DNA from: Heliopora coerulea
Taxonomy: Eukaryota > Cnidaria > Anthozoa > Scleralcyonacea > Helioporidae
Assembly (NCBI GenBank): GCA_030142905.1
Contig: JASJOG010000431.1
Span: forward strand, 1 to 64,000
Length of the DNA: 64,000 nucleotides
Reading direction: 5' to 3'
Of this stretch, positions 5,150-59,616 are shown in pieces. The translations under genes and the position numbers were made by a program. Under the pieces are notes generated by a model. The model saw only the letters and a program-made list of their open reading frames with translations. It ran no database searches and was not told the DNA's origin. Within the stretch, counting starts at the first letter, position 1; every line of letters begins with the position of its first letter.

Positions 5150-5169
5150 CTGTAAAGAATGGAAATCAA

Positions 5170-14847: not shown

Positions 14848-14869
14848 TGCACAGAGAGATAAACCAACA

Positions 14870-34819: not shown

Positions 34820-34852
34820 CGGCTTTGCATCTGTTTTCAGATTGATGTGGTG

Positions 34853-35401
34853 CTATCCAGATAGGCAACCAATATCTCCAAACACTTGTCCATAATGTTG
34901 TGTAATGTCGGAAGTTCGCTTTATTTGCTTGACACGTTTAATAAGGTTGAGGCGTTCACTTGTTGCTAGTCCTAGGATCGGAGAAGACTTAATCGGGACG
35001 ACAAAGAATTGTATCGGATAATCAATCTTTCCTTTTCTTTTTAGTCGTAGTATGCATTTACCTGAGATTGGTATTTCTGTTCCATCATATGCGAGTAATT
35101 TCTCTTTTGTTTGGTGTAATTTGTGTTGTTTTGGAAGTCGTTTGAATGTGCTTTGTGGTATTACGTTGGCTTGTGCTCCTGTATCGATTTTGTATTCGAT
35201 GAGTAATCCAGATGTATCAATTGATACGGTCCATGTATTCGAATCATGTTGCTTCTCACATATTTCGACTTTATGGCGCGCGTTTTCTTCTTGTGTTAGG
35301 GAGTGGCGTGTTGATTTCTCTTCGTTATTTAACGGTGCTAATATATAAGTTGTCTCCACCTTCAACACTTTCTTTACTAGAATGGTTGTCATCTCTCGCA
35401 T
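34853..35401 (-). pseudogene. Gypsy aspartic protease region
   Basis: The retropepsin active site is seen as YKIDTGAQANVIP (D-T-G) with the later hydrophobic-G segment SSPILGLATSERLNL. The frame is the same as that of the reverse transcriptase frame starting at 34819, and is separated from it by a single TAG at 34853. The stop could be a mutation or, less likely, a read-through site. Confidence 0.85.
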
Positions 35402-36580: not shown

Positions 36581-36994
36581 ACGCCTGACCTACTTCATGT
36601 CCTTGTGGATGGGATAGTCTTAACTCTACATGCTACTATTTCAGTAAATTCCAGGCCACCTGGGATAATGCAAGATCTTATTGTCTGAGTCGTGGCGCTG
36701 ACTTGGCCTTTCCCGTGAGCAGGGAAGAAGAAATGGCAATCTTGGACACCTTGGAAATTAAAAAACACAAAGATTATCACCCCTGGATCGGGCTTGTAAG
36801 ACGTTACGATAAAGAATTCTTTACCGTTTATGGATTGAAGCCTAACTATACAAACTGGTTACCAGGGGAACCTGATAATTTTTCAAACTGCGAAAACTGG
36901 GCACATTATTGGGTAAAAAATGGTAAACAGGCATGGAATGATATACTTTGTGCGAAGAAAAATCATTTTATTTGCGAGGATAAAAGAATGAAAC
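36581..36994 (+). CDS. C-type lectin domain exon (copy 2)
   Basis: The domain runs from CPCGWDSLNSTCYYF through WDNARSYC, WIGLVRRYDKEFFTVYG, NWLPGEPDN and AWNDILC to FICE, with more canonical features than copy 1: a 'GEPDN' loop and WND. The exon has an acceptor tttatag at 36580 and a donor GTGAGT at 36995. A TGA lies in frame at 36586-36588 between the acceptor and the domain, so either the true exon start differs or this copy is damaged. It is about 60-70 percent identical by eye to the minus-strand exon at 4735-5149 and shares its splice donor phase. No upstream signal-peptide exon was found. Confidence 0.7.
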
Positions 36995-37417
36995 GTGAGT
37001 TAAAACGTATTTCTATTTTCAATTTATCCAAAAGTTATGCAGGGATCATGTGACAAATATTATTCCGGTTTATTTGTTTCACTTTGATCAACCTGTTTTA
37101 AATAATTAAAGGAAATGTTAAACTTCCTATTGTTTGACCAAGTGGGTACGACTAAAATCTCCTCAGTTAACATAATTATTTCAGCATTCAGAAGATTTCA
37201 ATTAATCATATATTCTTTTAGCGCATGTGCAATGTCTTATTCTGTCTTATTTTGATTGTTAGTTACCATGAGAAGGTGAGTAATATTAAATAATTTTGCT
37301 CAACAAGGCAAAATAGCTGTATCCCAAAACTTGTTGGCCGTGGATTAAATTATGATTTTTATTTTAAGTTTTTTATGCTAGAACTTAATATTACTACCGT
37401 CTGTTCTCCTTTTTTAG

Positions 37418-42554: not shown

Positions 42555-42715
42555 ATGACTTCCCTATCGATGGGAACCGACACATTTGTCCCCTGATTTC
42601 TGAGGCCTTAACTCACCATAGGGTTGATTTCTTCGGCCCTGAATGGAAATTTTCAAAATGTTGGGAAAACAGAAAATGGAAACCATGAAGTGGATACCTT
42701 ATGGTGTCAAAAAAT
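42555..42715 (+). repeat. Left terminal inverted repeat
   Basis: It matches 59458-59616 in inverted orientation. The inner 54 bp (42662-42715) are identical and the outer ~100 bp diverge by indels and substitutions. Inside it begins a subterminal series of 'gaagtggaaacc' repeats (42687, 42735, 42785). Confidence 0.85.
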
Positions 42716-42761
42716 CAATTTTCAGGGTTGTCAGAAGTGGAAACCTAATGATGTAAAAAAA

Positions 42762-43345
42762 TCAATTTTCAGGACGATTTTCAGAAGTGGAAGCCTCTAC
42801 TGGGTTCTGTGTTTTGTGTCCATAAATGTGCTTCCCAGTGGTTATCCCACCTGATAGAATGCCTAGTAATGGTATGTATGGGGTGACTTTCTCAACTGAG
42901 GAATGCACATCTCTTTTTGACAGTTCATCTTTCTTCAACTCATCTGTTAATTTATCAGGTGACTCAATGGCTTCAAGACCTCCTAACGTGTTAGCAAATT
43001 TACTTATTAAAAGATCAGATAGGAACTCATTAGCTTTTTTCATTCTTTTACGTTCTTATTCAGTGTACAGTTTATTTATGACCATAAGACTGGCCTTTTA
43101 AATGTATGCAACAGATTTATCCAAATCACCATCTTCCGCTAATTTCAGAAGTTCGTCTTTTTTCTTTTTTAAATCAGATTTATCATCTTGCGGTCAACAT
43201 TTTCATTAGTTTCGTTTTCACTGAAGATATTATTCATTTCCTCATTCAAAGAATTTTCTGTGGCTGACATATCTTCAATAACAACATCAATATTCTTTGG
43301 CTTTGTAGTTTTGCGTTTTACATTATCTATATAATAACATACATT
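42762..43345 (-). pseudogene. Unrecognised small viral protein, broken
   Basis: The last open part (43043-42762, 93 codons) has a charged N-terminus rich in Lys, Glu and Asp and a hydrophobic stretch YIPLLGILSGGITTG, and it ends at the left terminal repeat. Upstream on the same strand, to about 43345, coding-like sequence rich in Asn and Glu continues with a shift and two stops. No family is recognised. Position at the arm's end and the hydrophobic segment are all that can be said. Confidence 0.4.
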
Positions 43346-43386
43346 TTATTTTTGCGGCGTGTTGATTTTATAATCGTATGGGTATC

Positions 43387-43795
43387 TTAAATTGATTTCC
43401 AAAGTAGCGTATTTAGTAATTTTAAGTTAGAAATGTTTTCTCTATAAGGTTTGGCTATACTGGTTAATTGCTGAGTGATAAAAATTGTTGATAAATCATA
43501 ACGTCTTGCTGAGAAAGCCAGTTTAACCAATTCACTGGTTCTATTTTTAACATCCTGACTACTTGCATAATCGTCTAATTTTATTAAATTATTAGTGCCT
43601 TTATAAATTTCCTTTACAAATTATAATATTTTATCGACTTTGTCTTGTTCACATTCTAATGCTAAGAAATCAGTGTCGTTGATATATTTCCACTGTTGAT
43701 AAGTTTTATTCCATGAAAATGTTGGACAAATAAAATGTTTTACCACAGTTTGTCATACCACATTATCATGTTGAAAGGGGTTTCCATCTATATAA
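43387..43795 (-). pseudogene. Packaging ATPase (A32/FtsK-like) remnant
   Basis: The Walker B region is seen as LIKLDDYASSQD, followed by the arginine/sensor-type segment TSELVKLAFSARRYDLSTIF and ITQQLTSIAKPYREN, characteristic of HerA/FtsK-type DNA-packaging ATPases of Polintons and related viruses. Such enzymes pump DNA into the capsid. The N-terminal part with the Walker A loop is not found between this gene and the upstream capsid gene that ends at 43806, and stops interrupt the frame, for example after DKVDKIL. The gene is a dead fragment. Confidence 0.65.
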
Positions 43796-43805
43796 TACTA
43801 TACAA

Positions 43806-45053
43806 TTACTGTTCAATACTTTGTAAATTATTATGTTGAAAATTGACTAGTCCGTCAGACACCCTATATATTCTATATATAATGGTTTCTGTGTGTGCGG
43901 TCTTATTGATTTTCAATTGGATACCGGTAGAGCTGTTTATTAATTTTTTCCGTGATTTGTCACGTTACAACCTTCATTTGACCTTAGATCGATAACGAGA
44001 GCGAATTTATCTTTGTAGAACATTTCTGGTGTAATGAATTCATCCATATCATTTTTTAATCCAAAAAGTCTTTTAGCTTCGTCGTGGAAATCGCTATTTT
44101 GTATTCCATTCGAATAAACTTGGTTTGGAAAAACATCGACGGATGCATCTACACTTGTGATATAATATATATATATATATATGAATTCTTCGCTATCTTT
44201 TCTAGTTGTGTTGGTAAACAATATAACTATTGCGCTCATAGAACTGCGATTTATGTTAACATTTTCATTTAGGAGAGTTTTTGAAGCATCCAATGTGTCA
44301 GTTTTAATGAGAGATATGTCTTCATAAATTATAGAGTGACCCAAAGCTTATGTTGATGTTATTTCTTTAGCAATACTTGAGTTATCAATAGTTTCATATT
44401 CTATCTCAATGTTTTCTAGACTATAATTTCCAAGTGTTTCATTAATTTGTGCAACCAATATTTCATTTGATTCGGGTAAAGAGATCGTGCATTTGAAATT
44501 ATTTATCATTTGATATGGTGCAAATAAACCACGGTCATTAATAATTTTGACTAAATGTAATTTCTGTTTTGTTCCATAAATGTCAAAAATTAGCTTTTCA
44601 GAGACCTTTGTTGCATCTCCACTAGTTGGACCCGAGTCGTCTTTGCTGATTAACTTTCTTAAGTTTTCGGATCCAATACCGTATTGAATCATCTTTTTTT
44701 CTTTGCGTTTTTGTTTTGTAAAGGTCCTTATATATACTATAAAAACGTTCAGCATTATTATTGTAAACCGGCTTTCCAGATATCGTAATCAACAACCGTT
44801 TTTACAGAAGCTTAGATAGATTATTTAGGAAATGACTTTTAGGGTTGCTGACTTTGAAATCGAGCCGTAGGTTCATTCACCCCGGAACCAAACATTTATC
44901 ATTATCAAGTTTGGGGATATCTATTGTTAGTTGATCATTTGGACTGACTTTAGGTACTTTTGAAGTTGTTCTAAATCTTGTTCTATTGCCCTTTATTGAG
45001 CTTTTACGTTTCCTTACAAATCCAGGTATTAGTTCACTCTCTGTTCTGTTCAT
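43806..45053 (-). pseudogene. Probable major capsid protein gene, broken
   Basis: A gene of about 415 codons is spread over several frames on the minus strand, starting at 45053 and overlapping the end of the upstream membrane-protein gene by about 20 bp. Its middle has YGIGSENLRKLISKDDSG, and later SAIVILFTNTTRKDSEEF, and its end has a VSDGLVNF-type segment near 43845. Length, gene position next to the ATPase and lack of membrane or enzyme motifs suggest the double jelly-roll capsid protein; structural prediction would be needed. Stops lie at 44348 and about 44880 and shifts near 44700 and 43950. A (TA)n run at 44161-44182 sits inside the coding frame. Confidence 0.5.
44161..44182. repeat. 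(TA)n microsatellite inside the capsid gene
   Basis: About 20 bp of alternating ta encode an in-frame IYIYIY run in the capsid reading frame. Confidence 0.85.
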
Positions 45054-46378
45054 TAGTACATATATTACTATACATTTTCCTTCTCTTTCGTTCTTTATAT
45101 TGGTCGTAGATAAACCATACTACTCCTACCGCTAAAAGGCACAGGTTCTTGCTTAACCATGCTAATCCTTTAGCACCCCATGTTATTGCCTGCGCTATTA
45201 AGTTTAATATTGGCGCTAATAATGGTCCTAGTTTTTTTACCAAGATTATATAATGCTTTAGCGAATTTTCCAGTGGTTTGTGCACCTTTGAGTATTGCTT
45301 TTCTAGCGCTCACAACGATTGTGTTTGTAATGCCAGCGACTGACATAGCTATTGCTGATAGCCCGACTAGGTTATTTTTAGCCCATTCTTTGAAACGTTG
45401 CAATCTAGTAATGCCTTCCTCCTGCTGCTCTCTAGTTCCTTCTTTTTCTTTTTGTGCTAAAGTTCTATTTCTGGCTTCTCTGAGAGCAATTATTCTTTCC
45501 TCTAAATCTATGACCTAATCAGGGTTCTCTGTTTGGTCTCTTTTTTCCCACGTCCTTTCTAAAGTGTCTTGAAAGTAGTCTGCCTGAATTTGTAAAAATT
45601 GTGGTCTTGTTGACTTATCAATGCTTTCTGATGGTTTTAATACGCCTTTTAGCTCACTGTTCTCTTTTTCTGTTAAACCAACAATATTTGTTAAATCGGG
45701 TGTTGTGTCGACCATATATCCAGCATTTTTTCTAACAGTTTCTTCTCTATCTTTCTGTTTATCTATGGTATCTTCTATCCATTTCCTAAAAATGCCAACA
45801 GCAGTCTGTCTTGTTTTTGCATTATTATATTCAAATACACCAACTTTATTTTTATTCAGTACAACACATTTTTCATTATTATCCATTATTAAACTTATGT
45901 TGTCACGTCCTGATCTAATAATAATGTCCTTTAGAAATTTAAAAGTTTTGTTATTTGTTAGATCGAACTTGAAATCTTTAATTTTATATTATCTACTTAT
46001 AAATTCTTCAATGACATCCTTTTTGAATACTAATAATGATGGTATATCAGGCATTTCTGGTGCTACATCAAGGAATTCTACTCTAGGTGCTTCAAAACTG
46101 TCCCTTCTGGTATTTATAGTTACTGTACCATCTTTGTTACTAGTAAACGTTGTTTCGGCGACCCCTTTTATTCTTCCCGTAAGCTCAATATAACTCATCC
46201 TATATATGACATCAGCATATTTTTCATCTTGAGGGACACTATCCCCACGCAATAAATCTAAACGTTTTTGTGATAGATTTTGATATTCACTATATATCTC
46301 TTCATCAGTTATATCGACATATTCTGGGTACTTTATACTAAAGTCTCCCATTTCGAAATCGTCAAATACTTCAGCCAT
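45034..46378 (-). pseudogene. Large viral membrane-associated protein, broken
   Basis: Three consecutive open parts (46378-45989, 45886-45515, then from about 45513 past 45403) are in the same frame, separated by single stops at 45989 (TAA) and 45515 (TAG); a shift near 45250-45285 moves to the last part, which ends at 45034. The N-terminal region is acidic and helix-rich. The C-terminal part has several hydrophobic segments (NLVGLSAIAMSVAGITNTIV; LGPLLAPILNLIAQAI; LCLLAVGVVWFIYDQY) and ends in a basic tail. It is probably a virion or membrane structural protein; no family can be named. Confidence 0.55.
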
Positions 46379-46391
46379 TATTTTGTATATA

Positions 46392-47494
46392 TTACTCTAT
46401 ATTTTGTATATCACTCTCAGGAATCCAACTATTATGTTTGCTATCATAACCCAACCATTTGACAAGAACCATCTTTTTGCCTTTTACTTTTTTCCTTTTC
46501 AGTATTTTTTCCACTCTGAAGACATCATCCCTTTTATCAACACCTGACAACTCCTCTTCGTAGAATTTCCCAATAATTGGTTCATCTTCTAGATCCTCTA
46601 TTTCACAAACTGTTGGGTCGCCACGAATAACATTTCTTATTTTAAACAATTCTTCTGTAAAGTTGGCTTCATAACCTTTAGTAAAGATGCTCTTACACTT
46701 GGATATCATAGCTGTATCACCAATTTTAAACTTAGCTAATGGTAATTCTCCATAAAAATGACCATATAGTGTTGTCCAGACTTAATTTTCATTATTTTTA
46801 TACACATCTTTTGGCTTCATTAAAATAGTACTATGTTTGGTATTATTGTAATTATACACCAGTTGGTCCAACACATCGATCCATTTATAAGTTCCTTTAC
46901 TATAGAAGTATTTCCACATAGCAGTTTTAAGAGTTCTATTGAATCTGTCTACAATAGCGGCCTTTTTATTAGAGTTTGTGGAGAAATATTTAATATCATG
47001 CTTCTCTAACAACGATTTTACGCCAACATTGTAAAACTCCTTTCCATCATCAAATTGAGCTAATTTAGAGTAAACACCAAATCTCTCTTTAAATTGCCTC
47101 AGTAGTTCTGTGACCACTTTTGTCATATTATTAGTGTCTTTTCTGTAAACAGGAATAGTAAATGCACAGCTGCTATGAATTTCAATAGCTGTAAATATCC
47201 AGTAATAACCTGTGTTTTGTTTTTATATGAACCCATATCAACGAGATCCAATTGTATCTGCTCACCCAGACAGTTGACTGTAGTTTGTCTAAATTTATGT
47301 TTTCTGACAATTGGTTAATATCTGGTGTATGTATCTTGCGATCTTAAGCAGTCTTTTACTTGTTCTCTACTGACATTCAAACCATCTTCTAAAGCTTTTT
47401 GATATAATCTTTCTGCAGATTGGTAACCAGTTTTGGGATTGTAGTAAATATCTCTCAACCGTTGTTCTGACTCAATATCTTTATTCATATACAT
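46392..47494 (-). pseudogene. Retroviral-type integrase with C-terminal chromodomain
   Basis: The start (47494 or 47488) opens with a helical N-terminal region (YNPKTGYQSAERLYQKAL). The catalytic core follows: first Asp in QLDLVDMGSYK (about 47240-47270), second in AQFDDGKEFYN, and at the third position, 46947-46949, an Asp in AAIVDRFNRTLK where this family normally has Glu. The C-terminal chromodomain is FRVEKILKRKKVKGKKMVLV, then KWLGYDSKHNSWIPE, which in related integrases reads histone marks. Frameshifts and a stop lie between about 47150 and 47320, and one TAA at 46782 interrupts the same frame. Integrases of this kind insert Polintons into host DNA. Confidence 0.85.
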
Positions 47495-47498
47495 TACA

Positions 47499-48412
47499 CT
47501 ATATTATGTATAAGTCTAGTAGCACTTTACCGACACTTAGTGTGTTACCATCTTGGTCCTTAACATTGAAATCATAATTATTTATGAATCTATTAAACAA
47601 TTAGATTATGAGCTTTGAGAGCGAATAATCTAATTGTTTTAGTAGAAACAGACTTCGCAAAGAACATTTTTCGTCTTCTCTGGGATTGCACTTTCAAGTA
47701 AGCATTCTATTTCGTCTTCAGAAACTTCACAAAAACGAGAGGCGGAAGCCATTTTCGCTACGCGCTATCTATCGACGAATAGATAGCGAGTAGCGTAGCC
47801 AGTCAGAATGCAACATTTGCAACAGTACTCGACTAATTTTCTACTAATATCAATTAGCATTCTGAATTCAATATCGAAAAAACGCTGGACACTACCTTTT
47901 AATGATTGTGTAGTAGTTATCGGTAATACTGCTATAACGTCACTAATCTCACCATTTGTATTTATATTTTCTAAAATTTTGATCAAATTACAGGTGATTT
48001 TTATGTATTGTAACCCACTATTAATATTGACTGGATTACCACTTTTTGTTTTTGTATTAGCATTTATTACTTGGTCTTTATTAAAACCTAATATGGGCCT
48101 TAAAGTTTTTATATTTATTGCATTGTCACTAGTAATAGAGCACGTTCCGTCATATTCATTAGCCACCAAAGTAACGTTGCCATAACTCTTAATCTCCTTC
48201 TTAAGCATATTAAATGACCAATAACCTTTCTGTATGGTCTTTTTATTACCGTTATATGTTAATTCGTTGTCCTCATCAGTGATATTATTGTAATCCCAGA
48301 ATAATGTAGCCCTCTTGACTAACAGATATGGGTTAACATTTTTAATTGAAAATGGTTCTTTCAAGTTAAATTTTTTTGAGGATCCTTCTATGAAAACACT
48401 AATTCTCTTCAT
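47499..48412 (-). pseudogene. Second structural (minor capsid/penton-like) protein gene with an insertion
   Basis: The main part (48412 to about 47820) has no enzyme motif but shows beta-rich segments such as YGNVTLVANEYDGTCSI, NSGLQYIKITCNLIKI and DVIAVLPITTTQSLKGSVQ. The C-terminal end, DFNVKDQDGNTLSVGKVLL, resumes at about 47595 and stops at 47499, after an insertion of about 200 bp. A beta-rich non-enzymatic protein next to integrase and capsid genes is a good candidate for the vertex protein, but the class is inferred. Its start is 24 bp from the divergent plus-strand gene at 48437. Confidence 0.5.
47597..47820 (-). mobile_element. Insertion carrying a tyrosine-recombinase-like N-terminal exon fragment
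   Basis: On the minus strand an ATG at about 47751 opens MASASRFCEVSEDEIECLL and continues for about 35 codons to a stop. This resembles the N-terminus of cnidarian Crypton/DUF3504-type proteins. Short hairpins flank it (acaattagattat at 47597 inverted at 47625; cgctatctat at 47763 inverted at 47779). The segment is GC-richer than its surroundings and splits the C-terminus of the structural gene. Exact borders and target duplication are not resolved. Confidence 0.45.
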
Positions 48413-48436
48413 ATATAATATATTATATATTATATA
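48413..48436. promoter_or_regulatory. Divergent AT-only gene start region
   Basis: Only 24 bp, all A/T except the edges (tatataatatattatatatt), separate the starts of the minus-strand arm and the plus-strand arm. It must hold both core promoters if transcription starts between the genes. TATA-rich leaders of similar kind precede many genes of the element. Confidence 0.45.
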
Positions 48437-48895
48437 ATGGAGGACCTTCTTAAAAATTATTATGGAAAGAACTATGACAAGGCTATGAAAATTGCTGAAA
48501 AAGAGCGCATAAGATTAAGAAAAAATTTTATTAAAAAGTATCCTAATGCTGATTTAAGTAAATTCGAATTCGATGTCGATCTTAACCAGGACGGTACAGT
48601 TGATTCCACTTCTGTATACTTTAAGAACTCAGATGTGTTAAGCACAGACATTACAAGTGACACATTCTATAATGACAAAACAACGACAAGATATCTTTAC
48701 TCTAACTCCAGTAAGAGTGGTTTCCCTAAAATATGAACAATAGGTGGAAAAGTCCAGGAATTTCCAAAACGCAGGAGACATGTTGGTTTTTATGGAAAAG
48801 AACACTACTGTGATAATTTCCCTGTTGATTATGTTTTAGCTTACTCCATAAATGTATTCAAAATATGTCAACAAAACAGACTGTTTCATGAGTAA
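48437..48895 (+). pseudogene. Unrecognised viral protein, one in-frame TGA
   Basis: The frame runs 100 codons to a TGA at 48734 and continues in the same frame to TAA at 48893. The N-terminal 40 residues are a basic helix (KIAEKERIRLRKNFIKKY), then a D-rich segment. No family recognised. Its end overlaps the start of the next gene at 48888. Confidence 0.45.
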
Positions 48896-49573
48896 TCTAC
48901 CTCCTCTAAATATAACCACCAAAAATTTCACCAAGTAGGATCTCAAAGAACCATATTTTCAGTCTATTATTGGGACTTGGATAGCAACATATGCTTCAGG
49001 TATATCCATAGAGCATTTGACTTTCAATGATACTGTTCCGAAACAGATAACATCACTTATGAGGTTTATATATAACGTTAATTAATTAATTTTCTAATAG
49101 ATCATACACCCAAGTGGACATGGCAAGAAATGACAGGGTATAAGAATGAACATTTAAGGCAAGACGTTGTAGGGTTTAGTAAAAATCAAAAAACATATGG
49201 ACCCGGTGTTGGTCTTATTCGCGATGTTCAAAATGACTATAAAAAGTTCATTCCAAAGATTTCAGATGGATTAACCATAAAAGGCACTGAACTACTTAAT
49301 CAATCGATTGAAGCGTATATTTACAGTTTACTAGGAGCACAAGCGAAAACAAGACGGAGCATTTACGGTAATAGACCATCATCATTAGAGACACAAAATG
49401 TGTTTCGTAGGAATGTAGAAGATAGTATTATTAATTATGATACAAGTGTTTGGATAAACCATATGAATAAGGCAGTGTCTGACACTAATTTTGTTGTTAA
49501 TCTTGCTGTCAGTCCATCTTTATGGTTACTACCTTATAGTGTGGTTATTCTTAAGAATCCTTTTGATGGATAA
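48888..49573 (+). pseudogene. Unrecognised viral protein, broken
   Basis: An ATG at 48888 opens a frame with a TAG at 48936 and a shift in an AT-repeat near 49080. The downstream part (49130-49573) is open for 147 codons with alternating helices (SDGLTIKGTELLNQSIEAYI) and a hydrophobic C-terminus (LWLLPYSVVIL). It is conserved enough to be open over most of its length. Function unknown. Confidence 0.45.
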
Positions 49574-49603
49574 AATAACAAACTACGAATAGCTAGTGAA
49601 AAC

Positions 49604-49873
49604 ATGAAATTTGGTAAAAACCCTAATGTTAATTTTGTGGGTGTAAAGAAGATCCCACCTAAAAAAATTCATCAAGAAGATCAATCAAAATCACATTTAG
49701 ACACATTAGATAATACTGTTGTTAAAAAAGAAGAAAAACTGACTAGTCATCATGATATTAAACATAGTGATAAAGCTGTTCCTATTAAAAATGATGAGCA
49801 TAACACTGATTTAATAGCAACTTTCGCTGTGTCAGGTATAGCTGCATATTTAATAACAAAATATATCATATAA
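49604..49873 (+). CDS. Small tail-anchored-type viral membrane protein
   Basis: Eighty-nine codons, intact. The N-terminal 60 residues are very hydrophilic (Lys, His, Asp), followed by one C-terminal hydrophobic segment, LIATFAVSGIAAYLITKYII, at the very end. This topology suggests a tail-anchored membrane protein. It lies 30 bp after the previous gene and 9 bp before the next. Confidence 0.55.
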   Translation: MKFGKNPNVNFVGVKKIPPKKIHQEDQSKSHLDTLDNTVVKKEEKLTSHHDIKHSDKAVPIKNDEHNTDLIATFAVSGIAAYLITKYII

Positions 49874-49882
49874 TATAGGAAA

Positions 49883-50910
49883 ATGAACTGTTTATGTTAT
49901 GGGTATGAAAATGAAATAGATAATAAACTTTCTTTATCAGGAGGGAAAATGAGTGGTGATATTGATGTGTCTTATTGGCGCATTAAAAACATCCCCGCAC
50001 CTTTATATGATTATGATCCTATTTCAAAGGCTGTCCTGGAACAAACATACTATTCAAAGTGTGTCAAAATAAGTCATTATAAGGTAAATCTCAGTGAAAC
50101 ATTGTTCTGGGAATACTATAAAAAGTATGCTACAAGTATCTACAGATTTGACCGACGTTCGAATAATAGTGAATTAGTATACAATTCTACAACTAGAAAA
50201 GTGTCTAGAACTACTGATAAAGGTCTACAAGAAAATGATGCGGTTCAAAACGCCAGCAATTCAGAACCTGTCATCTGTACAAAAAGTGAAAATGTAGGAA
50301 ATAGATATTTCTTAAAGTTTGATGGAACACAAAGAATGCTAAGTGATATTAATTTGAACAGTGTAAGTGGAGAGAAGGATATGTAAATATTTTCATTGTA
50401 TACAGAATAAAAGCATATGACGCTAATAATTATTGGGTTCGTAATGGCTTATTTGGACACGATAATCGTGGTCATGATAAGTTTGTTAGTTTTAATCCTA
50501 CTTGTGATTTGGTTGTTTCTGGTACAACAAATGATATCATTATCATTGGTAGTATTCCTATTCAAACTAAACAACCAATAGCTCCATATAAAACAAAGGC
50601 AAATGCAGGAGAAATAAATAAATGGATATGTTTATCAATACATTGGAAGAATTACACAACACCAGCAGCTGGAGCTAGCAAGGTATATTGTAATGAACAA
50701 AAGCTGACAGACTTTCAAAGCAGAAATTCAACTGGTTCAACTAAAATGACTTTCGGTGATCTCAAACAAAGTGGTAAAGCTCCTTTTAAAGGTGATATTT
50801 CTTTTTTCTCCTTGTATAAAGGAAGATTAATAAATGAGAAAGACATTTTACTGCATCATTACGTACTCTGTAGTTGGTTTAATATTGATACGGTTGATTT
50901 TGAAATTTAA
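49883..50910 (+). pseudogene. Fibre-like protein with concanavalin-A/LamG-type lectin fold
   Basis: The N-terminus has LSLSGGKMSGDIDVSYWRIK, a motif found at the shaft or attachment region of phage-type tail fibres ('GGxMSGDIDM...'). After a one-base shift near 50383 the C-terminal half (to 50910) has beta strands and the segment NKWICLSIHWKNYT, then APFKGDISFFSLYKGRLINE, typical of LamG/concanavalin-A-like jelly-roll lectin domains. The combination points to a host-attachment fibre. The shift separates the shaft and head regions. Family is inferred from motif patterns. Confidence 0.55.
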
Positions 50911-50927
50911 TGTAATGGAATATATAT

Positions 50928-51059
50928 ATGAGAAAAACTATTGATTTTAATCATATTAGTGATAAGTTAATGAGTGAGGAAGTCAGTAAACTGAAAAGAT
51001 GGTATTAGTGTTATCATAAATTGTATACATGTTATAAGTGGAAATACAAAAAGTATTAA
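50928..51059 (+). pseudogene. Very small basic viral ORF with in-frame stop
   Basis: Twenty-six codons to a TAG at 51006, with the same frame open to 51057. It starts just after a tatatatatg leader and its downstream part is rich in Tyr and Lys. Called because of its place in the tight gene series; function unknown. Confidence 0.3.
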
Positions 51060-51080
51060 AAGATTAAACTGTACCTGAAT

Positions 51081-51404
51081 ATGTCTAGAGTTGGATTGAC
51101 AGCATTAGGTGCAATATTAGCTCCACTTACAAATTTAGCAACATTATCTATCTCAGGTGGTGGAATGTTGATTCAAGGTTACATATCAAACAGTAATATG
51201 TAAAGAACAATCGAAACATGTAGGTTTGCTTATACATCTTATGAAAAAGTACTTATACAATTGAAATCATACATGAGGGGTATGCCTTATGATGAAATAG
51301 TGTTGCTTAGTGATTTAAAAGTATTGGATAATATTGTCACTGACTTATGCCCTTCCATAAATGGCAACTCTAAAAAATATGATAAGATATATGGTAATAT
51401 ATAA
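51081..51404 (+). pseudogene. Small viral membrane protein with one stop
   Basis: A frame of 107 codons starts MSRVGLTALGAILAPLTNLA, a glycine-rich hydrophobic N-terminus likely to cross or enter a membrane. It is interrupted once by TAA at about 51200 and continues in the same frame to the end at 51404. The next start overlaps the stop. Function unknown. Confidence 0.45.
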
Positions 51405-51550
51405 TGATGGACAAAGTGAGAAATTTATTTAAGAGAGTCAGAGATTTCATACGTTGCTGTAAGAAGACAACTGAAGAAATTGATAGTATACTAGAAGATA
51501 TTGATGATTTGCAATTGCATCGTATAGATGATCGTACAGACTCTTTGTAG
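51404..51550 (+). CDS. Small basic/acidic viral protein
   Basis: Forty-eight codons starting ATG ATG and overlapping the preceding stop by one base. The N-terminal third is basic with two cysteines (FIRCCKK), the rest is an acidic helix (EEIDSILEDIDDLQ). Unrecognised; supported only by the tiling of this gene series. Confidence 0.35.
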   Translation: MMDKVRNLFKRVRDFIRCCKKTTEEIDSILEDIDDLQLHRIDDRTDSL

Positions 51551-51618
51551 ACAATCGTTGAGGTATCGTGTAGATGATATTACAGATGTTTGTAAATAAA
51601 ATATACACCATTATATAG

Positions 51619-51978
51619 ATGAGTGAAGAAACAAATAAAATAACAACAGTGAAAAAGGAAAAAGACCCTAAGAGGGTAGAGGCTGGTAAGAGATTGGCTG
51701 CTATCTCTAAAGGTGCAAAAGAGAAAAATATGCGTGATAAAATAGAGTCCGAAAACAAACAGGAAACTGGCAGTATTTTCCATAATATTAATTATGGCTT
51801 AGTATTTGGTATATTAGGGACAGCCGCCGCCATTGGATCATTATACTACACAAGAAAAGAGTACAAAAGTGAGAGTAAAAGTCTAGATAAAATGAGAGAG
51901 GAGTCAGAGGATAATCACGTTGAAATTAAACAAATTAAACATAAACAACCAAAAAATACCCTCATACACTTTGATTAA
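51619..51978 (+). CDS. Single-span viral membrane protein
   Basis: One hundred and nineteen codons, intact. A highly charged Lys/Glu N-terminus (~50 residues) leads to one hydrophobic segment (YGLVFGILGTAAAIGSLYYT) and a charged coiled tail. It fits a small virion membrane or scaffold protein. Preceded by a 'tatatag' leader. Confidence 0.5.
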   Translation: MSEETNKITTVKKEKDPKRVEAGKRLAAISKGAKEKNMRDKIESENKQETGSIFHNINYGLVFGILGTAAAIGSLYYTRKEYKSESKSLDKMREESEDNHVEIKQIKHKQPKNTLIHFD

Positions 51979-52072
51979 TAGTTGAGATAAATGGCCTTAA
52001 GGTGCGTCAAAGTGTGTCTAGATTTTTTACTTAAAAAATCCTATAAAGACATATTATATAACACTGTATAAC

Positions 52073-52881
52073 ATGTCAATAACATTCAAGAAGTTCGAGA
52101 ACAAGGAACTAAATGTTTCATTGAACACTTATATAGATGGTAAACAAAACACCTGGTTCAAAGGTAAAGATGTTGCATCAGCTTTGGGTTATAAAAATAC
52201 AGACCAAGCAATCAGAAATCGTGTGAAAGATAAATACAAGGCAGTTTTCAACGCCCCCTCGAATCAAAGGGGGGTTCAAAAGACTATCTTTATAACAGAA
52301 CCAGGTTTTTACTCAGTGATTTTTAGATCTAAACTAGAATCTGCAGAAATATTTCAAGATTGAGTGTTCTCTAAAGTTCTGACATCAATTAGGAAGTATG
52401 GGCACTACAGAATGTTCAATAACCCTAATACATTGGCATTTAATATAGAAGAAGATTATGATCTACATAACAAAGTGGTTCAATTCATTAGGCGATTGTA
52501 CCCAGAAATATTAATGACAGCTGGACTTGGAGAAAATCAAGACACTAAAGACAAAAATGCATTAAGTCGTTCAAAAAGGGATTCATGAAAGGTCAACCTG
52601 ATCTAATAGTTCATAATCTCCATAAGCATTATAATGGTCTATGCATAGAGTTCAAGACCCCTCAAGGTAATGGAATCACCTCAGAACAGCAGAAAGAACT
52701 AATAGACAGATATAAAGACAATGGGTATAATTGTATTGTATCCAATGACTATGACCTAATAACTAAGGAAATCAATGACTATATGCATAATGTTCGCATC
52801 AGATGCAAATACTGCAGAAGGAAATTCATATCCAGAAAAACACTCAATAGACACATTAAATATTTCCACAGAATCAAATGA
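52073..52881 (+). pseudogene. BRO-N / VRR-NUC / zinc-finger protein
   Basis: Three domains in order. First, a BRO-N (Bro-type DNA-binding) domain: NTWFKGKDVASALGYKNTDQ and the TIFITEPGFYSVIFRSK segment. Second, a VRR-NUC-type nuclease: GQPDLI, the E-x-K motif in LCIEFKTPQGNG, and Q in TSEQQKEL. Third, a C2H2-type finger near the end (CKYCRRKFISRKTLNRHIKY). An in-frame TGA at 52361 breaks BRO-N, and a one-base shift near 52575 breaks the junction to the nuclease. VRR-NUC enzymes act on branched or nicked DNA, so a role in replication or recombination of the element is plausible. Confidence 0.75.
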
Positions 52882-52912
52882 AATATAATGCATTATACAT
52901 TATACATACACG

Positions 52913-53605
52913 ATGAGTACAGTCAATAACAAAGAATTGATGAAAGAATTATATGACGCGGCTCTAGTAACGGCCGGAGTTGTAGGTCTTTCTATGGTAT
53001 CTAAAAAGGTCCTCGGTGAAAAGCTCACTAACGCATCAACTCTAAAGGATACGGGTAAGTTAGAAGGTGGAGTAGCAGTCAGCACAATGCTAGTAAAGTG
53101 GGCGCAAGATAAGAAGTATATTCCAACAGATCCATTTTCCAAGAACCAGTTAAATGTATTCTATTATATACAGATAATAATGGCTAGTGTTATAGGATAT
53201 ATGTTGCAAACAGCATTTGCTAGTCTTGCATTTGCTGGCAGTGGATATCTTTTTAAGATGCTTGATAAAAATAATTATGAAGCTGAAATAAAAAGACATA
53301 ATAAGGCATTAGAAGACTTATCAAAGGCTAAGGATGCGTTTTATGAGAATGAAACCAAGCAACAAGATGGGATTCAACAACTAAGACAACAATTATCAGA
53401 TGCAAATGATGACATAGAACAAATAAACAAAGCTCTTGATATGCTAAGACAGGTTCAATCAATACAATATAATGGAAAGACATTTAATAGAGAACACCAA
53501 TTAAATGATTTTTACCAACCAAGCGATGAGATGAAAGAATATCAGTATATTACTATTGGTTCTGTTGGTATTGGAACAGGGTATATATTGAGTAAATATA
53601 TTTAA
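52913..53605 (+). CDS. Viral membrane protein with coiled coil
   Basis: Two hundred and thirty codons, intact. A glycine/serine-rich hydrophobic N-terminal region (VTAGVVGLSMVSKK), a central pair of hydrophobic segments (IQIIMASVIGYMLQTAFASL), a long charged coiled coil (KRHNKALEDLSKAKDAFYEN, then QQLRQQLSDANDDIEQINK) and a final hydrophobic C-terminus (ITIGSVGIGTGYILSKYI). Two membrane regions flanking a coiled coil suggest a structural or fusion-like role, but no known family is recognised. It is preceded by an AT-rich leader with 'attatacat' twice. Confidence 0.55.
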   Translation: MSTVNNKELMKELYDAALVTAGVVGLSMVSKKVLGEKLTNASTLKDTGKLEGGVAVSTMLVKWAQDKKYIPTDPFSKNQLNVFYYIQIIMASVIGYMLQTAFASLAFAGSGYLFKMLDKNNYEAEIKRHNKALEDLSKAKDAFYENETKQQDGIQQLRQQLSDANDDIEQINKALDMLRQVQSIQYNGKTFNREHQLNDFYQPSDEMKEYQYITIGSVGIGTGYILSKYI

Positions 53606-53635
53606 AGATGTGGTGTATATTAGTGCACAAAACTT

Positions 53636-54199
53636 ATGGATGGATTAGAAGCTCTGTGTCATGGGTATAAATTCGAAGAAATAGTTGAAAATATAGATGA
53701 TTTGGACTCTCTCTACAAAAAGGAAGACAAACACTACCAAGACAATTATTGTAGTGAAAAAGAACTAAAATGCATTGACGGTATGTTTGTATGTGTTGAA
53801 TGTAGGAAAGTAGAAGGTTATGAAATGGAACCAGAATGGGTTGATAATATCTGGCTAAATAGGAAGAAGTCAGTGTATATTAGAAGTCGACATATTAAAG
53901 ATAGAGTGGAAAAATATATGCACCCTAATCATTGTCGATCTTTTGTATCTGATTTTATCGAAGTGGTTGCTATAATGATTAAACACAAAATGATTAAGAA
54001 AAACGTTTCTAGATATGACTACTACATCATAAGACTAGCTAGCAGGAAAGGTGCAAAACTAATAAAGAAACCCACTGATCTAACACACAGTAAAACAAGG
54101 AATTCGTTTAATGACCGGCTATTCGGTGCCGTTTACCCATTATTAGGTTGGGACAAAAATTGTAAGTGCCCTTATTATTTGGAGTGGAAGAAAAATTAA
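53636..54199 (+). CDS. Zinc-ribbon protein, possibly late-transcription-factor-like
   Basis: One hundred and eighty-seven codons, intact. A CVECRKVEGYEMEPEWVDNI segment gives a C-x2-C half of a zinc ribbon, with other Cys/His (HPNHC; CKCPYY) further on, and a basic middle, RKKSVYIRSRHIKDRVEKYM. The layout is reminiscent of VLTF3-like transcription factors of large DNA viruses, but the match is by pattern only. If right, it would drive late viral promoters. Spaced 30 bp from the previous gene. Confidence 0.4.
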   Translation: MDGLEALCHGYKFEEIVENIDDLDSLYKKEDKHYQDNYCSEKELKCIDGMFVCVECRKVEGYEMEPEWVDNIWLNRKKSVYIRSRHIKDRVEKYMHPNHCRSFVSDFIEVVAIMIKHKMIKKNVSRYDYYIIRLASRKGAKLIKKPTDLTHSKTRNSFNDRLFGAVYPLLGWDKNCKCPYYLEWKKN

Positions 54200-54243
54200 A
54201 CGCACTTAATCACTTAAACATTATCCTATATATCTATAGTATA

Positions 54244-54453
54244 ATGCCTGAAACAAATATAGATAAACCCAAAGGTGGTCGCGGAAGACCCAAGAAATAT
54301 TTCACAGACGAAGAAAGGAAGCAAGCAGACAAACGATATGTTAAGGAATGTATGGAAAGAAACCCTTATCATTGTCATATTTGTGATCACACTTATCACA
54401 TGGCAAGTAAAAGCAAACATGTAAAAACCAAAAAACATATAAAAAAATCTTGA
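54244..54453 (+). CDS. AT-hook plus zinc-finger DNA-binding protein
   Basis: Sixty-nine codons, intact. The N-terminus has an AT-hook core, KGGRGRPKKYF, and the C-terminus a C2H2-like finger (YHCHICDHTYHMASKSKH). Both bind DNA, so this is probably a small transcription or chromatin factor. It follows the leader 'ctatatatctatagtata' directly. Confidence 0.65.
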   Translation: MPETNIDKPKGGRGRPKKYFTDEERKQADKRYVKECMERNPYHCHICDHTYHMASKSKHVKTKKHIKKS

Positions 54454-54545
54454 AAAGTTGATTTTATAAAATGTGGCCAAAATTTTTGCGTTAAAATGGC
54501 TTAAAAGAATTTTATATATACTATATTATAAAGCATATACAAATC

Positions 54546-54959
54546 ATGTCTACAGATTTTAATCCGTTAACTGGGAGGTTAGTATCCCAGGCATACTATA
54601 ATAAGGTGATGAGAAAAATTGTCCGTGAAAAAGCTATAGAAGAAGAAAAGTTAGAAATGGATCGGATCTGATTAGAAAGAATGTTGAAGAATAGACCTAA
54701 GCACTTAACACCTCCTGTTCAACAATTTGTGGTCAACAATGACAGAAAAAATAAGGGTAATAAAATAACAAAGAGAACCGGTTTGAAAAGAAAGACCATA
54801 AAACAAATTGTCAAAAGCCGTCCAATAGCAATAAGGACCGGTTTGAAAAGGAAGGTCGTCAGATCTGTCAAACCAAAGATATATATCAACCCTCTGAATG
54901 CCATCAAAGTTAACAGACGGACCTATTTAAAAGCGGTACAAGACAAGAAAAGAAGATAA
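54546..54959 (+). pseudogene. Very basic protein with an internal duplication, one TGA
   Basis: About 137 codons with an in-frame TGA at 54669. The part after the TGA is Lys/Arg-rich (about a third basic) and carries a duplicated motif, RTGLKRKTIKQ and RTGLKRKVVRS, from two related DNA segments near 54776 and 54837. Such proteins often condense viral DNA. The leader before it is 'tatatatactatattataa'. Confidence 0.5.
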
Positions 54960-54964
54960 AGGGA

Positions 54965-55408
54965 ATGGCAAGAAATGCTCAAAAAGGAAGAAAGAATGTC
55001 ACTTTTTATGGAAAAACCAGAAAAAACCCAATAAAATTGCACATGATTGACCTAACACTTAACGACGCAAGAAATTATGAACTCCAGTTCGTACACAAAC
55101 GCACTGTAATGTTTGAAAGGAACTCTTCTATGGTAAACTTATTCAGAAGGCGAATGAGAAGGAATGGAAATGGCTGGAAAGAAGTGACGGTGTCCATAGA
55201 CGATGTTATTAGAGACGACAGAAAACCTTTTGGGAGACAAGATACACTCAGGAATTTTGGACCATATGAAGAGAGACTTCCAAGAGGGTTATCAAGACGT
55301 GATCAATACCAGTTCTTGATGTATACACTGGTGAAAGATTGTCGATTTGAACCACAATCAGGAGAACATATTATTGTGTTACATGTATATAGTAGATATT
55401 ATATTTAG
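54965..55408 (+). CDS. Basic viral protein of unknown role
   Basis: One hundred and forty-seven codons, intact, six bases after the previous stop. Basic N-terminus (MARNAQKGRKNVTFYGKTRK), then a compact domain with a run of arginines (FRRRMRRNGNG) and a beta-rich end (EHIIVLHVYSRYYI). The tight spacing suggests co-transcription with the preceding basic protein. No family recognised. Confidence 0.5.
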   Translation: MARNAQKGRKNVTFYGKTRKNPIKLHMIDLTLNDARNYELQFVHKRTVMFERNSSMVNLFRRRMRRNGNGWKEVTVSIDDVIRDDRKPFGRQDTLRNFGPYEERLPRGLSRRDQYQFLMYTLVKDCRFEPQSGEHIIVLHVYSRYYI

Positions 55409-55409
55409 G

Positions 55410-56030
55410 ATATATTGCTTTCGTGCATGAATATTGCTTTCGTGCATTTCGTGCATGAGTAATTTGTTTTCGTGCATGAGTGAGGAAATAGTTAAACCTC
55501 AAAACGCAACGCCTTAGCCTACAAGATAACTTAACGGACATCCTGTGCTGGAACAAGCTTTCACGCACCGTTTAACGTAAAGAAAATAGTCATAATCCTA
55601 ACGTATAAAAGACAGAGCACAACTCAGCAGTGTATGTATTATTCATAAGGCGTTAGCCTGAATAACATCACAACGAACCGAAGTATTAAAAGGAATTATC
55701 GATATCAAGTACCAAACAAATCAACAGAACCAAAGAAACCAAGAAGTCAAAGTCGTAAAAGAAATCAAAAGAACCAAAATCCAAGAGCGTACAGAGTGAT
55801 CAGAATTGTGCTCAGTCTCACAGCAGTATAATACATACTTCAAGGTTAGAAAGAATAAAGACGCTAATCTTTAAGTAATTCAAGTAAAGTAAAATAAATA
55901 GTTGAAAATATAACTGGTTTTGTATTCTTTGTTGCGACCAAATTGAACCAAAAGCAGCCACATAATTTAATAGGGACCGGCTCGTAACAATTGGTATTGC
56001 AGGTGAGATAACAAAACTCCGGAAGCTAAA
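55410..56030. other. Largest gap inside the element, with short direct repeats
   Basis: No gene seen. Copies of 'tttcgtgcatga' occur at about 55419, 55437 and 55468. A TATA-like 'tataaaag' (about 55604) and AATAAA-like words (near 55890) are present, so promoter and terminator signals may lie here. It may hold the leader of the replication gene. Confidence 0.4.
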
Positions 56031-56031
56031 G

Positions 56032-59000
56032 ATGGCTGACGTCCGTATAGGCGACACTAGACTTATGAATGCTCTTGTAGACAAGTGTAATAATCACAAA
56101 AGAATAACACAAAATGAAGGCACCTGTGTGCAGGACTATATATACGAAGCATGTAGAGGTGTAATCGGCTTCAAAAGATACACCAAACAGACGCTCACAG
56201 AGGAGATAAATAAAAATGTTTTTGACAAAGATGGGGAAAAACCTATCCACTAGAGAAATATTGGACTGGAGAGATAACTGTCACACAAATGTGTCTATTT
56301 ATGCTCTGAACCCCTTTTACAATAAGTTTGTGTCTTCCCCAGCACCCAGAAACAATGGTTTGACTGTCCGTTTGTGCTTTATATGCAAAGATGGTCACTG
56401 TTTTCCAATACTTAATGAACACCTGATAACAAAGATAACAAAAGGCTCTCCGTTGTTGAACCACGTGGACCTCATACAGTGGAATTCCAAACAGTCGGAA
56501 AACAAAATAGAAATATGCAAAACTGCAGAAGACTATTATAAAATAATCAGCCAACCGAAACATAATATAGCCAGCTGTAAATTATTCACCAACAGCAGCA
56601 ATAAAGGGGAAAAGGATTACAGCAACTATCTAATTGTCCTTCCAGATGGACACAAAGGCAAGGACATAATGATTGAAACCATGCAAAAGACAACCACATA
56701 CATAGAGTATTTCCACTATGACGGTAGGAACCAAATAGATAGTTTCATAACACCTGATCTAAAGAATATGGTAGCTGTCAATAATGACTATGAATGAAGG
56801 AAAAATATATGTGACCAATTGTTTGAAAAATACCCAGTGGATGTTTTTATGTCTAACAACCAAGGACTGACATCTATTGCAGTAAATCTATTTAAACAAC
56901 TCTAAGGGCACACTCCAAAGTCTAGTTATAATAGGTATGTGACAACCATTATATATGACTACTATCTAAGGGCACTTCCATAAAGAGCTAGTTAACGTGG
57001 AAGAGGAGGAATTAATAGCACTTGATAGAGCAAAGGATTACCCCTCAGCATTGCTTAAAAACTAACATGATATCCCATTGTATAACATACATAATACCAT
57101 CACCAAATTTGATGGAGAACTAAAAACTGGGGAATACTATATCAATGAAACATATATCCACAAGTATAGGACTCTAAACGACGAACCCATAACAATAGAA
57201 GCTGCATTTTATGGAAGAAACTTAATAGACTATCTACTGAAACACAAATTCATCCAGTTATCTGATATAAAGTACCAACTGGTCGCTGATAAGTCCATAC
57301 AACATGATGCATTCCAAAGGTACATTAAGTATATATTCGACAACTTTGATGAAAAGACTGCTAAAAAGCTGGCAAATCAATTTATTGGTTACCTAGGCAC
57401 GAAATATGATAAAAGCAGCAAAGGATTCACATCCACTAGCTATGACACCGCTTGTGCTGTGTGGACCGAAGCTATGGAGAATAACGAAAAAGTAAGTATC
57501 CACAAGGAAGACGACTTCTATCAGATCCGTAAAATAGATGTGAAAAGTAGGATGACTGAAAACTGTTCTATTAATAGACATTTGATATCAGGATCCATAG
57601 TAAAACTATTGGAAGTGATGGAAGAAGCATGTGATCAACACACTGTAATCCATGGTTATAACACAGACGCTGTATACTGTACGACTGCAAAGACGAAATA
57701 CCCAATTAAAGAGAAATTTATTTCTGACATGATTGGTAAAGTGTTCCAAAAGGTAGGAGAGACTCCTACATTAATAGGCAAATCCTACAGAAAGAATATC
57801 GATATCAAAGAATACAAAATGGGGAGAGGCAAAGGCATACTGGTCACAGGTGGTGCTGGCTGTGGCAAGACAACTAAATTAATCAACGATACAAAAGAAA
57901 GTAAGAATCCTATTATATTCAGTTTTACAAACAAAGCTGTGGATAACATCAGAAGTAGGGTTGATGACAGTATTAAAAAACAAGGTCCATACGTTTGATA
58001 GCTATTTTAATGAGTTTATATCAGACGCAGAGAATTTAAAACTTCTATCTAACAAGAACGTCTTTATAGATGAGTTCTCTACGGTACCAAACAAATGGAT
58101 CACTTTGACCTACAACAGCCTTGTGGCCAATAATCTAAGAGTGAACCTATATGGAGATATCAACCAATGTGACCCTGTTGAGGACAATAGTAGATTAACC
58201 TATGACCACACCAAAAGTCCTGCAATATTGGACATGTGTTGTGAGGTGGTCGAACTAAAATATATCGAAGAATGGCTAGATAAGACAATAAAACATTTTA
58301 TATGTTATCCAACTTCCTTGAGACCGGTCGGTCGGACCAAAAATTGGGCGACTATACGGGCAGTTATGTGAATATTTGCTACTTCAATAGTACTAGAATA
58401 GAGGTCAATAAAATGTGCTCTGACGCATTCTGTGAAGGTAAAAAACATATGAAAGTCAACTTCTGCTACAATGGAAGTAAAGAAGAATATAAAATCTGTG
58501 ATGGAACACCTGTGATATGCATAGATAATATGAAGGACCGTAAAATGTTTAACTCGCAACAGTTTACTGTTAAAAGCATAAGTAAAAATGGGGTCACGAT
58601 AAAAGAAAACGACCAAAAGTCCTCTTTGGATGACTTCAGAAAGAAGTTTAACCTAGCATTCTGCATTACAGTATACAAATACCAGGGTGCAGAGATAGAC
58701 CAGCACTATAATATCTTTGATACTGAAGCAATGAATAAAAAACAATTATATACAGCTTTAAGTAGGACAATTAAATTCAAATACATTCATGCAGAAAACT
58801 TGAAGACAAAATACTCCCAGACGAAGAAAAACAAATACGAGGTCAAATCTATAGGACACACAGAAATGGTAAGATCTACAAAACAGAGTTCGAGGATGGA
58901 AGCATTTATATCGGCTCAACGATAAAGACCCTAGAAAAGAGACTAAAAGAACACAAATCTGACACAAAGAGTATAGTATACAAAAATAAAGACAAAAACC

Positions 59001-59170
59001 CTATATTATCACTAGTCATAGATTGTCCCTGTGAGAATAAGCATAAACTAGAAAAAATAGAAAAGAAGCACATAAACGAGTACGCTAAAAAGTGTGGTAG
59101 TAAGGTACTAAATAAAAGGGGTAATGACGAAATAAAAAAACCCCAGAAATTAAATACAATTTTGAAATAG
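56032..59170 (+). pseudogene. Replication protein: polymerase-like, SF1 helicase and GIY-YIG nuclease
   Basis: One long gene in at least six open pieces. The N-terminal third (56032-56797) is of unknown fold. A polymerase-palm-like part follows: AKDYPSALL (57030-57056), resembling B-family motif A, and NTDAVYC (57660-57680), resembling motif C. Then an SF1 helicase: Walker A GGAGCGKT (57852-57872), Walker B VFIDEFS (58060-58080), motif III YGDINQCDP, and QLYTALSR near the end. Last, a GIY-YIG nuclease (58852-59170) with DGSIYIGST, an EKRLKEH segment and the catalytic Glu region, then LNKR. Breaks: shifts near 56240, 56980, 57965, 58300 and 58850; stops at 56795, 56903, 56981 and 57063. The polymerase reading is an inference; the helicase and nuclease calls are firmer. 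Confidence 0.7.
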
Positions 59171-59205
59171 AAAAAGAGGATGAGCTAATGTAAAAAATAG
59201 ATAAA

Positions 59206-59376
59206 ATGGTGGCCATAAAGAACGACAAAATGTACAAAAGACTAGAAATAGAGTATCGTGACGGTGACAAAAAGGTCAAAGTAAAAAAGGGTTATGGTCG
59301 AATACCTCTATCTGAAGCAATTGATTATGTGAAAAGCCAACAGAAGATTTTGAAACAGAAGTTAATTCTAATCTAA
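59206..59376 (+). CDS. Small Lys-rich ORF after the replication gene
   Basis: Fifty-six codons, starting MVAIKNDKMYKRLEIEYRDG, with a Lys/Val-rich middle. It may be an independent small protein or the displaced tail of the replication gene; no family recognised. Confidence 0.35.
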   Translation: MVAIKNDKMYKRLEIEYRDGDKKVKVKKGYGRIPLSEAIDYVKSQQKILKQKLILI

Positions 59377-59457
59377 TTGATTTTTTAACGCCATAAGGTT
59401 TCCACTTCATAAAAACGAACAAAATGGGTAGGCGAAGCGAAGTTTCAACTACCATTT

Positions 59458-59616
59458 ATTTTTTGACACCATAAGGTATCCACTTCATGGTTTCCATTTT
59501 CTGTTTTCCCAGAATTTTCATATTTCCATTTAGGGCCGAAGAAATGACCCTAAGGCGAGTTAGGGCCTCAGAAATCGGGGGACAAATCCCTCTGTACCCA
59601 TCGGTAGTGACTTCAT
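59458..59616 (-). repeat. Right terminal inverted repeat
   Basis: Inverted counterpart of 42555-42715. A further copy of the 'ggtttccacttc' subterminal unit lies just inside, at about 59396-59410. A frame on the minus strand runs through it but is shared by the repeat itself and is not called as a gene. Confidence 0.85.

Follow-up and report, generated by a model that had tools for sequence, protein, structure and literature searches.

We examined a 64,000-nucleotide stretch of the Heliopora coerulea genome (contig JASJOG010000431.1 of assembly GCA_030142905.1, positions 1 to 64,000 of the forward strand; hereafter the window), in which positions 42563–59608 hold an integrated element that we consider here as a candidate endogenous virus of Polinton type. 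Its genes are laid out divergently, with virion and integrase genes running leftward and fibre-like, Bro-N/VRR and replicase genes running rightward. The borders, the leftward genes and the replicase are as follows.

42557..42562, no strand: left target-site duplication GACTTC, identical to 59609..59614
42563..42720, plus: left terminal inverted repeat (repeat search and end alignment), its terminus also found in the C370 and C14 copies
42765..43055, minus: conserved frame without known family adjoining the left end, 76% identical in the C14 copy and 88% in the C370 duplicate
43390..43790, minus: presumed genome-packaging ATPase (A32/FtsK type), in pieces, at the same position in C14
43943..44788, minus: presumed major capsid protein, in two frames (43943–44347 and 44351–44788)
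44880..46396, minus: five frames without known family, several kept between copies
46395..47222, minus: RVE-type integrase with C-terminal chromodomain, interrupted (Pfam Chromo and rve)
47596..47843, no strand: insert cutting the penton-like gene
47768..48514, minus: presumed penton-like (minor capsid) protein, C-terminal end cut, 22 relatives
54914..55405, plus: replicase N-terminal domain, a possible terminal-protein position, in one frame with the vOTU-like part and palm in the C46 copy
55376..55989, no strand: insert in the replicase
55966..56794, plus: replicase vOTU-like part, two frames, conserved Cys/His
56990..57760, plus: replicase family B polymerase palm with motifs A (D...YPS), B and C (NTD)
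57800..58922, plus: superfamily-1 (S1; Pif1/RecD-like) helicase, three overlapping frames (Pfam UvrD/AAA_19)
58868..59167, plus: C-terminal GIY-YIG nuclease domain of the replicase (Pfam, 3.4e-08)
59454..59608, minus: right terminal inverted repeat (repeat search and end alignment)
59609..59614, no strand: right target-site duplication GACTTC

The ends define the element sharply. A repeat search placed inverted arms within 42555–42720 and 59454–59616, and local alignment of the two ends yielded 143 identical columns of 165 with a score of 216; 300 resamples from an order-1 Markov model scored 34 at most, and 290 random pairs of window segments 32 at most. The borders were set by eye, by comparing the termini of three copies; ACTACCGATGGG or a close variant of it forms, by eye, the terminus of the element and of its copies on C370 and C14. 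Long terminal inverted repeats are thus joined to a 6-bp target-site duplication, which is typical of Polintons, and to an RVE integrase, as in Polinton/Maverick elements. Within the integrase the chromodomain scores above the Pfam cut-off (E = 2.5e-13) and the rve part below it (E = 1.2e-05; 25.9 bits, cut-off 32.6); pieces of this gene are 78–100% identical in other copies.

Names for the virion genes, the fibre-like one included, are based on characteristic motifs and genomic context. What we take to be the packaging ATPase (43390..43790) holds a Walker-A-like GMTNCGKT and an ITQQLTS...PYREN stretch, each in another frame; 43943..44788 is presumably a Polinton major capsid protein, and 47768..48514 presumably a penton-like protein. 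Searched against the host assembly (430 Mb, 769 contigs), the capsid piece gave at least 150 matches, the window's own included (150 scored of 917 candidates), and 62 of the 150 have open frames of 395–432 amino acids (aa). The sequence-only reading of this DNA had described a Polinton-class integrating double-stranded DNA element of ~17 kb, recognized by its inverted repeats, integrase, packaging ATPase, capsid-type genes and a replication gene. Class, ends and integrase were borne out, whereas the ATPase and capsid calls agree with characteristic motifs and context but drew no library match. The same reading saw no adenain-type protease, and Pfam likewise matched no adenain/Ulp1-type protease among the 27 window pieces given to it, a set that leaves some frames aside.

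The frames between 54914 and 59167 belong to one broken replicase gene. In host copies at C46 and C12, 857-aa open frames run from the N-terminal domain through the vOTU-like part and the palm into the helicase, of which they cover the first part, and the chain P0022, like Montipora proteins, carries helicase and GIY-YIG together. A profile search with the replicase, scoring the 7,997 candidates that share most words with it, returned at least 255 relatives. Among the 120 matches listed, the longest chain has 1,378 aa, and Montipora foliosa and M. capricornis are represented by entries that NCBI labels 'uncharacterized protein'. Of the 49 relatives of at least 980 aa, all 49 are matched by the palm piece, 48 by the second vOTU piece, 46 by the last helicase piece and 40 by GIY-YIG; the N-domain and first vOTU pieces match 18 and 15. 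The pieces follow the domain order along the relatives' chains, and all seven match three chains (P0069, P0091 and P0098).

These natural relatives fuse a pPolB (protein-primed family B DNA polymerase) palm to a C-terminal S1 helicase, replace the first Asp of motif C and end in a GIY-YIG homing endonuclease, the features of Tlr1-like polinton-like viruses (PLVs). Of the matches to the motif C pattern, 112 read NTD and none DTD, and the first position of the motif is Asn in all 46 lettered rows of a 48-row alignment that also keeps the OTU-type Cys (41/41 lettered rows) and His (43/43). The assignment of the palm rests on its motifs and on a structural match to phi29 polymerase, which starts at phi29 residue 4–6; Foldseek with a relative's predicted structure matched Pif1 (E = 7.7e-14). 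An initial structure model (P0001) was of poor quality (pLDDT 50); its fold search was empty at E ≤ 0.001, and the model was not used. The best BFVD match is H6WBE3 (E = 1.7e-35 over 1,059 columns), possibly a transpoviron protein.

We therefore hold it highly probable that the element is a decayed endogenous virus of Polinton type in which a Tlr1-type fusion of pPolB, S1 helicase and GIY-YIG replaces the canonical pPolB. The arrangement of vOTU-like part, palm, S1 helicase and GIY-YIG, in which another residue stands in place of the first Asp of motif C, matches the 'Tlr1-like helicases' that PMC11071308 describes in Tlr1, PLVs and transpovirons. It differs from the Polinton/Maverick pPolB with exonuclease and DTD motif C. 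The replication gene is thus non-canonical, as the sequence-only reading had supposed; its statement that no protein-primed polymerase is visible is not supported, as a pPolB-like palm lies inside the helicase protein.

Several points weigh against this interpretation. The Tlr1-type assignment was made from published descriptions of architecture and motifs. Pfam, NCBIfam and PDB sequence searches gave no meaningful match for the capsid, ATPase, penton-like or fibre-like pieces (in particular none in Pfam for the ATPase and fibre-like gene, in Pfam or PDB for the capsid, or in PDB for the penton-like protein), and none of the replicases tried matched Pfam DNA_pol_B_2. In viral_contigs, neither the replicase pieces and profiles nor the capsid pieces found relatives. 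In the host, 75 of the 103 replicase loci described below are without a capsid match in the divergent layout, relative to the list of 150 capsid matches scored of 917 candidates, and at C434, one of three further loci inspected, the fetched stretch showed no partner genes.

Copies of the replicase are abundant in the host. Its palm-helicase piece gave at least 132 matches at 103 loci on 78 contigs, window included (128 of 286 candidates scored); identity is at least 70% at 79 of these loci, 50–69% at 11 and below 50% at 13. Stephens and colleagues reportedly found hundreds to thousands of copies of endogenous PLVs and polintoviruses in some coral species. At 28 of the 103 loci (the window and 27 others) a capsid match is found no more than 25 kb away and in the divergent layout of the window, where about 1.8 pairings in any layout are expected by chance; two further pairs have another layout. 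Gene order is retained over the fetched stretches at C14, C46 and C223, the C14 stretch being without the penton-to-fibre part, and C14 is an independent copy with inverted ends of its own, flanked by CCTTTC/CTTTTC, a duplication matching at 5/6 positions (by eye). On the strength of C14 and of the order kept at these three loci we rejected a chance assembly of separate insertions. The second copy of the terminal repeats sought by the sequence-only reading therefore exists, and the gene-level agreement between copies that it looked for is found at C14, C46 and C223 but not in the C434 stretch.

This distribution also bears on whether protist-symbiont DNA was assembled into the animal genome by contamination. 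Although Tlr1-type replicases have been described from protist elements in the literature excerpts available, we regard that explanation as extremely improbable: the 78 contigs include several of megabase size, NCBI Montipora proteins of the same family lie on contigs as long as 73 Mb, and the window flanks contain retroelement- and lectin-like frames (by eye).

Eight further stretches with divergent copies were compared. At C50, C99, C242, C701 and C456 the neighbours ahead of the replicase (u52889, u53624 and others) are kept in the same order; the C545, C15 and C220 stretches hold replicase pieces alone. The frame u52889 is 67–70% identical at C50/C99, against 38–43% for the palm, and 31–51% identical at C242/C456. 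This contrast is limited to C50/C99, so unequal rates or recombination are possible there but not in general. It would suit a composite origin, with a transpoviron- or Tlr-like helicase element secondarily inserted into a Polinton, as would the frequent recombination of replication genes in such elements reported in excerpts of PMC4642659. Yet the inverted ends enclose the replicase, whose place is the same in the window and in C14, and the shared layout recurs at the 28 loci. A composite is accordingly very unlikely, although as an ancient swap of the module it would agree with a Polinton-type virus carrying a Tlr1-type replicase. The host also has another replicase family, represented by C50 and C99 along with five loci of 42–43% palm identity; the compared C50 and C99 frames are 98% identical to each other.

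Of the 150 capsid matches, 62 are open and only 30 lie within 25 kb of a fused replicase. We inspected one stretch each beside two chosen 413-aa capsid frames, at C441 and C71; the capsid gene itself is outside both fetched stretches. In each stretch there is a long gene resembling a polymerase (1,374 aa; 797 + 589 aa), situated 10–14 kb away from the capsid frame and bearing FTDTDS, the motif KLMNN.VFG and an Endonuclease_7 domain. Neither DTDS-type frame matched Pfam DNA_pol_B_2, and chains of the fused-replicase family found no match in either stretch at E 1e-3. From their motifs, these loci are probably canonical Polintons. They lend some substance to the idea that the window element was an ordinary Polinton whose own canonical pPolB has decayed past recognition, which we nonetheless find very improbable: the gene at 54914–59167 matches the other family, with its open chains of 1.0–1.4 kaa, its NTD motif C and its S1 helicase. 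For the replicase gene itself, these fused-family chains and the NTD motif refute a decayed canonical pPolB.

A relative of u52889 (40–49%) lies directly upstream of the C441/C71 polymerase, just as u52889 precedes the fused replicase. At C441 there are, in addition, integrase pieces 79–81% identical to those of the window (a 21-aa piece 100%), a penton-like relative (37%) and a counterpart of frame 48419 (73% identical), all on the far side of the polymerase in a layout unlike that of the window element; no integrase was seen in the C71 stretch. The difference between these loci and the window element may be read as a swap of the replication module. It is possible, though we put it forward only tentatively and doubt it somewhat, that one animal genome harbours two related Polinton-type lineages with related capsid genes, perhaps near-identical integrases, and different replicases (a DTDS pPolB and the Tlr1-type NTD fusion of pPolB, S1 helicase and GIY-YIG). 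The 79–81% integrase occurs at one of the two loci, in an unlike layout and possibly separate from the element of the DTDS gene, which weighs against two lineages. Were they real, a swapped replication module would have spread to more than 100 copies in an animal.

The window copy itself is old. Its capsid, ATPase, integrase, penton-like, fibre-like, Bro-N/VRR and replicase genes are broken by stops, frame changes or inserts, a few small frames remain open (51619, 52889 and 53624), and the two ends have diverged by 13%. A copy at C370:150085-162232, 93–97% identical to the element in long shared stretches, also shares the window's flanks (1041/1122 and 1352/1430 aligned bases, 93–95%). Because its flanks match, we dropped it as a second insertion and take it to have arisen by duplication of the window's insertion, which must be older than that segmental duplication (~3–7% diverged). 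Inserts at ~47596–47843 and 55376–55989 are missing from the duplicate, which has in turn lost internal parts of its capsid-integrase and replicase regions. The sequence-only reading's count of about six intact genes, and with it a young or still mobile insertion, is not supported, given the broken genes, the divergence of the ends and an insertion that predates the duplication; we rejected a young insertion. Related open frames elsewhere in the genome suggest that the family, not the window copy, is the younger.

In living relatives, linear double-stranded DNA would be copied from both ends by protein priming, with the vOTU part freeing the priming domain, the palm polymerizing despite Asn at the first motif-C position and the S1 helicase opening the duplex. 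The ATPase would package this DNA in a double-jelly-roll capsid. Joining the ends to chromatin would be the task of the integrase, aided by its chromodomain, and would leave the 6-bp duplication.

To our knowledge, mimivirus transpovirons have neither capsid nor RVE integrase genes. Their likeness to the window element lies in the Tlr1-like helicase (PMC11071308). Tlr1 of Tetrahymena encodes an RVE integrase, a packaging ATPase and both capsid proteins, according to excerpts of PMC4642659, and the gene set of the window element is therefore most like that of Tlr1; the putative vOTU part, the palm with altered motif C, the S1 helicase and the C-terminal GIY-YIG agree as well (PMC11071308; PMC12721341, excerpts). 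The window element differs in its animal host, and homology of its N-terminal domain to that of Tlr1 is only putative. The Tlr1 group is described without an exonuclease, whereas the pre-palm region of the window family aligns from the start of phi29 polymerase; the coral fusion may thus keep a remnant of the exonuclease domain, linking the two enzyme types. Sixteen Cryptomonas PLVs, from protist hosts, have S1 helicase-GIY-YIG fusions, helicases of 1,000–1,400 aa with C-terminal GIY-YIG (PMC12220804, excerpts). The endogenous OmPLV of Oxyrrhis marina likewise fuses polymerase and S1 helicase, but there the helicase is N-terminal and the exonuclease complete, while in the window element the helicase is C-terminal (PMC12721341, excerpts).

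Animal Polintons and adintoviruses, stony-coral polintoviruses included, resemble the element in size, inverted ends, 6-bp duplication, RVE integrase with chromodomain and presumed capsid module, and differ in their canonical pPolB with DTD motif C. Endogenous PLVs and polintoviruses of stony corals have been published (Stephens et al. 2024, as cited in excerpts of PMC12220804), and cnidarian capsid genes are reported to lie outside the main animal Polinton cluster (PMC10120064, excerpt). Two sea-anemone Polintons with PLV-type capsid genes were noted in 2015 (PMC4642659, excerpts), and in 2024 vOTU-pPolB was noted in a polinton of the coral Stylophora. The parts are known, but we did not find this host and combination described; nor did we find a Tlr1-type replicase in an animal element in the excerpts of openly licensed literature. 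Counting against novelty, the Fig. 7 legend of PMC3671162, a source seen in excerpt, lists Hydra magnipapillata in trees of Tlr1 proteins (S1 helicase, Tlr1 6F). In the same body of excerpts, Tlr1-type replicases are attributed to PLVs of protists, to Tlr1 and to transpovirons; the elements of animals are described as Polintons or adintoviruses with canonical pPolB. An abundant animal lineage with a fused replicase, alongside a DTDS-type polymerase near related capsids, would make replicase swapping and the altered polymerase testable by comparison, and a scan for the canonical polymerase would label such elements polymerase-less.

The rightward genes ahead of the replicase complete the element.

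48419..49870, plus: frames without known family at 48419, 49082 and 49574, in the same order at C46 and C223
49874..50907, plus: fibre-like gene in two frames with a presumed LamG-like end, kept at C46 and C223
51619..51975, plus: open 119-aa frame without known family
52022..52878, plus: Bro-N/linker/VRR-NUC/C2H2 gene, split in three frames (Pfam)
52889..53602, plus: open 230-aa frame without known family (u52889)
53624..54956, plus: frames without known family at 53624, 54166 (AT hook) and 54672

Several frames are without known family, and many of the genes counted in the sequence-only reading are pieces of broken genes. For the split gene, Pfam matched Bro-N (4.5e-22) and, slightly under the cut-off, VRR_NUC (6.2e-05). 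In the C14 copy, Bro-N, linker, VRR-NUC and C2H2 finger are collinear in a single frame, stops included (L039:5602-6477), which suggests one gene for a putative DNA-binding nuclease.

Outside the element, and by eye, the window contains two C-type-lectin-like frames (4735–5232 and 36589–37053), LINE-like reverse-transcriptase frames (14311–16913), a hAT-like transposase end (27006–27914, a 302-aa frame) and Gypsy-like retroelement frames (32190–35401; 704 aa, reverse transcriptase/integrase-like).

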